Assembly (NCBI GenBank): GCA_021793375.1
Contig: JAJYSY010000008.1
Span: 1-64,000, forward strand
DNA length: 64,000 nt
From: Bacteroidota bacterium
GTDB taxonomy: Bacteria; Bacteroidota; Bacteroidia; Flavobacteriales; Flavobacteriaceae
Reading direction: 5' to 3'
The notes under the pieces are model-generated. The model saw only the letters and a list, made by a program, of their open reading frames with translations. It ran no database searches and was not told the DNA's origin. This document shows positions 40,844 through 43,167 of the stretch, piece after piece. Each line of letters opens with the position of its first letter. Positions within the stretch are counted from its first letter, which is position 1. The position numbers and the translations under genes were made by a program.

Positions 40844-43167
<2,324 letters not shown>

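Follow-up and report, generated by a model that had tools for sequence, protein, structure and literature searches.

A premature in-frame TAA in a sugar nucleotidyltransferase gene within a putative gene cluster for amino-sugar salvage from an uncultured flavobacterium-like bacterium

Results

Gene cluster surrounding the interrupted gene

The window (the whole stretch of DNA that was analysed, 64,000 nucleotides) derives from an uncultured flavobacterium-like bacterium, whose 2.34-Mb draft genome, 88.9% complete and in 101 contigs, is probably a metagenome bin. The minus strand carries, upstream of a nucleotidyltransferase (NTP-transferase) gene, an MFS sugar permease of the NagP/GluP-like type (43226..44515) and a GH109 α-N-acetylgalactosaminidase-like enzyme (41755..43128; PF21252), whose closest PDB chain is 2ixa (E 4e-190), an α-N-acetylgalactosaminidase. 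The end of the GH109 gene overlaps the ATG of the NTP-transferase gene by 4 bases. Downstream lies a NahK-like N-acetylhexosamine 1-kinase of the APH fold (39769..40794, minus strand; PF01636; PDB 4wh1/4ocj, E about 5e-49). An earlier note on this DNA had described the cluster around the interrupted gene as intact, and permease, glycosidase, and kinase are indeed open throughout. Directly after the kinase, at a distance of 5 bases, comes a family 2 glycosyltransferase gene (39107-39763, minus strand), which shares 14 bases at its end with a cupredoxin-like ORF on the plus strand (38635-39120).

The order GH109, PF00483 nucleotidyltransferase, NahK-like kinase, which in the window occupies 39769-44515 together with the NagP-like permease, is kept, with all genes open, in a genus mate (L003), in the nearest GTDB contig (L029), and in L030. 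A published description of precisely this gene arrangement did not emerge from our literature searches.

One reading frame, homologous to one protein on both sides of the stop

The NTP-transferase frame begins at an ATG (41758-41756, minus strand) and runs for 74 sense codons, until it ends at a TAA (41536-41534). The 5' fragment (41534..41758) thus encodes 74 aa and contains the nucleotide-binding loop, LAGGLGSRYQGQKQ. Beyond the TAA, the same frame reads DYFVEQTLTKYIPEKYQEK...GTAHAVLCAKD... and continues (40844..41533, minus strand) to a TGA ending at 40844; it harbors the catalytic NADD motif (residues 123-126). The first TTG past the stop, at 41512, is in frame and 21 bases downstream, and a restart there would yield a product of 222 aa. 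When the stop was replaced by X, the resulting 304-residue frame matched (i) PF00483 over residues 7-185, with 39.2 bits against a curated cut-off of 21.2 bits, and (ii) PDB 3pnn over residues 3-302 (E 4e-59). The single in-frame TAA in a sugar nucleotidyltransferase that the earlier note had reported is therefore borne out by the PF00483 and 3pnn matches, as well as by the 26 homologues (see below) that span the stop.

A chance frame is excluded, because the two off-frames of this stretch hold 36 and 25 stops, compared with one in the coding frame, and because the codon-usage log-odds are positive all along the NTP-transferase frame, on both sides of the TAA, and negative almost everywhere in the other two. 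Since homology and codon bias continue unbroken through the stop, we conclude that both parts belong to one gene, which a single codon interrupts. The TAA separates the GLGSRY nucleotide-binding loop in the first fragment from the NADD motif in the second, which occur together, in one polypeptide, in the aligned intact relatives. This separation would predict a loss of function.

None of the aligned homologues shares the stop

A match to the NTP-transferase was obtained from 25 of 60 related genomes, and a scan of GTDB genomes added three further loci, including one in Empedobacter brevis. The alignment comprised 26 full-length homologues (34-57% identical; 57% for L029), none of which, including those of the genus mate and L029, carries the TAA, any other internal stop, or a split at this site; the closest relatives align across it without a gap. 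It follows that only this assembly has the stop and that the gene is not one that occurs naturally in two pieces. The earlier note had held that homologues naturally split here would argue against a mutation; none of the 26 is split, and a naturally split gene was accordingly rejected. Reassignment of the code was rejected as well, since TAA is the commonest normal stop and terminates 42 of the 57 long ORFs in the window. These same counts (0/26 and 42/57) make it exceedingly improbable that the locus encodes a naturally split two-subunit enzyme or reflects a changed genetic code, and neither TAA usage nor the homologues, all of which lack the stop, points to programmed readthrough.

A stop that is real but bypassed, either by low-level TAA readthrough or by a two-piece product with restart at TTG 41512, with some activity kept, would fit the in-frame TTG only 21 bases downstream, as well as the undecayed state of the downstream part. 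No relative, however, is split or read through at the site, TAA is the dominant normal stop, and a protein begun at the TTG would, as the earlier note correctly remarked, be missing the nucleotide-binding loop, one of the best conserved parts of the protein. No TAA recoding element is known from this phylum, and we consider such a bypass improbable. A still more specific possibility, that the stop is genuine and that the two halves, made by termination and TTG restart, assemble into a working split nucleotidyltransferase, appears very improbable.

No second full-length copy of the NTP-transferase was found in the draft genome. The three other PF00483 proteins of the genome are without a stop, and a redundant paralogue was rejected, the genome having given no more than a short, weak match, on a different contig (C63), to a GlmU-like protein that scores below the GlmU cut-off. 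An exact search of viral contigs found no near-identical DNA.

Absence of decay downstream of the stop

Among the columns conserved in at least 90% of the relatives, 40 of the 41 after the stop are kept, the exception being residue 129; intact relatives lose 0-6 such columns across the whole protein. Relative-rate counts gave no consistent acceleration of the NTP-transferase. Its counts were uneven only for the downstream part in comparison with L029, with L003 as the outgroup (29:12, p 0.01); no such imbalance appeared for the upstream part or when other outgroups were used, and uneven counts were likewise obtained for neighbouring genes that are intact. The downstream part being undecayed, the lesion is either very young or a consensus error that is absent from the organism, because the same lack of decay would be expected from an error of assembly or consensus.

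The latter explanation, in which the consensus has taken up a wrong base or the allele of a minor strain, the stop is missing from the living population or confined to part of its cells, and the gene is intact and functional, is consistent with the draft and probably metagenome-binned state of the genome, with the rest of the frame looking as if under full constraint, and with no other split gene having been seen in the window, where ten short ORFs checked for truncation included no obvious case. Against it, errors that produce stops by substitution are usually rarer than real stops: in a survey of candidate pseudogenes, which used a different technology, 101 of 116 stop codons (87%) were confirmed in traces and 13% were unconfirmed (PMC522871). 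On the strength of this confirmation rate, we favor a real nonsense mutation over a base error or strain mixture, which we regard as unlikely on balance.

Discussion

We propose that a recent nonsense mutation has turned the NTP-transferase gene into a young unitary pseudogene in the sequenced lineage, and we assign this reading a probability of about 70%. The in-frame stop, the homology to one protein on both sides of it, and the relatives that are intact at the site (0 stops in 26 homologues) all accord with a nonsense pseudogene. The finding is an ordinary one, correctly observed and sensibly interpreted in the earlier note; among the four explanations offered there, a recent nonsense mutation and a sequencing error are both supported, whereas our analyses added nothing in favor of readthrough or of restart at TTG 41512.

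By this account, an amino-sugar salvage operon would have had its nucleotidyltransferase gene inactivated by a single recent nonsense mutation; its GH109 enzyme, permease, and kinase stay open. Translation would yield 74 residues that include the nucleotide-binding loop and not the catalytic Asp motif, a product restarted at the TTG would have the NADD motif and no loop, and neither fragment alone would be expected to form a working enzyme. Part of the missing step might be taken over by the GlmU-like protein encoded on contig C63. In the relatives, intact copies would very probably convert the HexNAc-1-phosphate produced by the adjoining NahK-like kinase into a UDP-sugar.

Several known systems resemble the locus in part. 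Like the bacterial unitary pseudogenes surveyed previously (PMC522871), it has a single in-frame stop, intact relatives, intact flanks, and no second copy; unlike those with trace confirmation, its stop is known from one assembly. The 3pnn chain (Conserved domain protein, 303 aa), which the X-filled frame matches over its full length, is intact, and the PDB names no function for it. In bifidobacterial NahK-based HexNAc salvage, a NahK-type anomeric kinase also precedes a uridylyl step, which in those bacteria is a GalT-type exchange; here, a PF00483 enzyme stands in its place. GalY (Amuc_0031), a predicted PF00483 replacement for GalT (PMC5583593), is likewise a nucleotidyltransferase of sugar-salvage clusters; in its intact form, the present family resembles the computationally predicted GalY type and may be related to it. 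GalY, however, was described beside galE or galMP (galactose), whereas the present gene is flanked by GH109 and a NahK-like kinase, which makes HexNAc-1-phosphate the likelier substrate.

From these conserved surroundings, we infer that the cluster would serve to release GalNAc, take it up, phosphorylate it at position 1, and then nucleotidylate it. The substrates suggested for the last two steps follow from gene order and from the known use of both GlcNAc and GalNAc by NahK (PMC6264712).

For annotation, the gene is to be marked as interrupted, and the finding otherwise has little consequence; the nucleotidyltransferase step should not be taken for granted when pathways are reconstructed from this genome. 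The cluster is plausibly a GalNAc-to-UDP-GalNAc salvage route in this bacterial family, and its intact form in the relatives, with GH109, a NahK-like kinase, and the PF00483 enzyme, provides a testable proposal, namely that released GalNAc would be converted to UDP-GalNAc.
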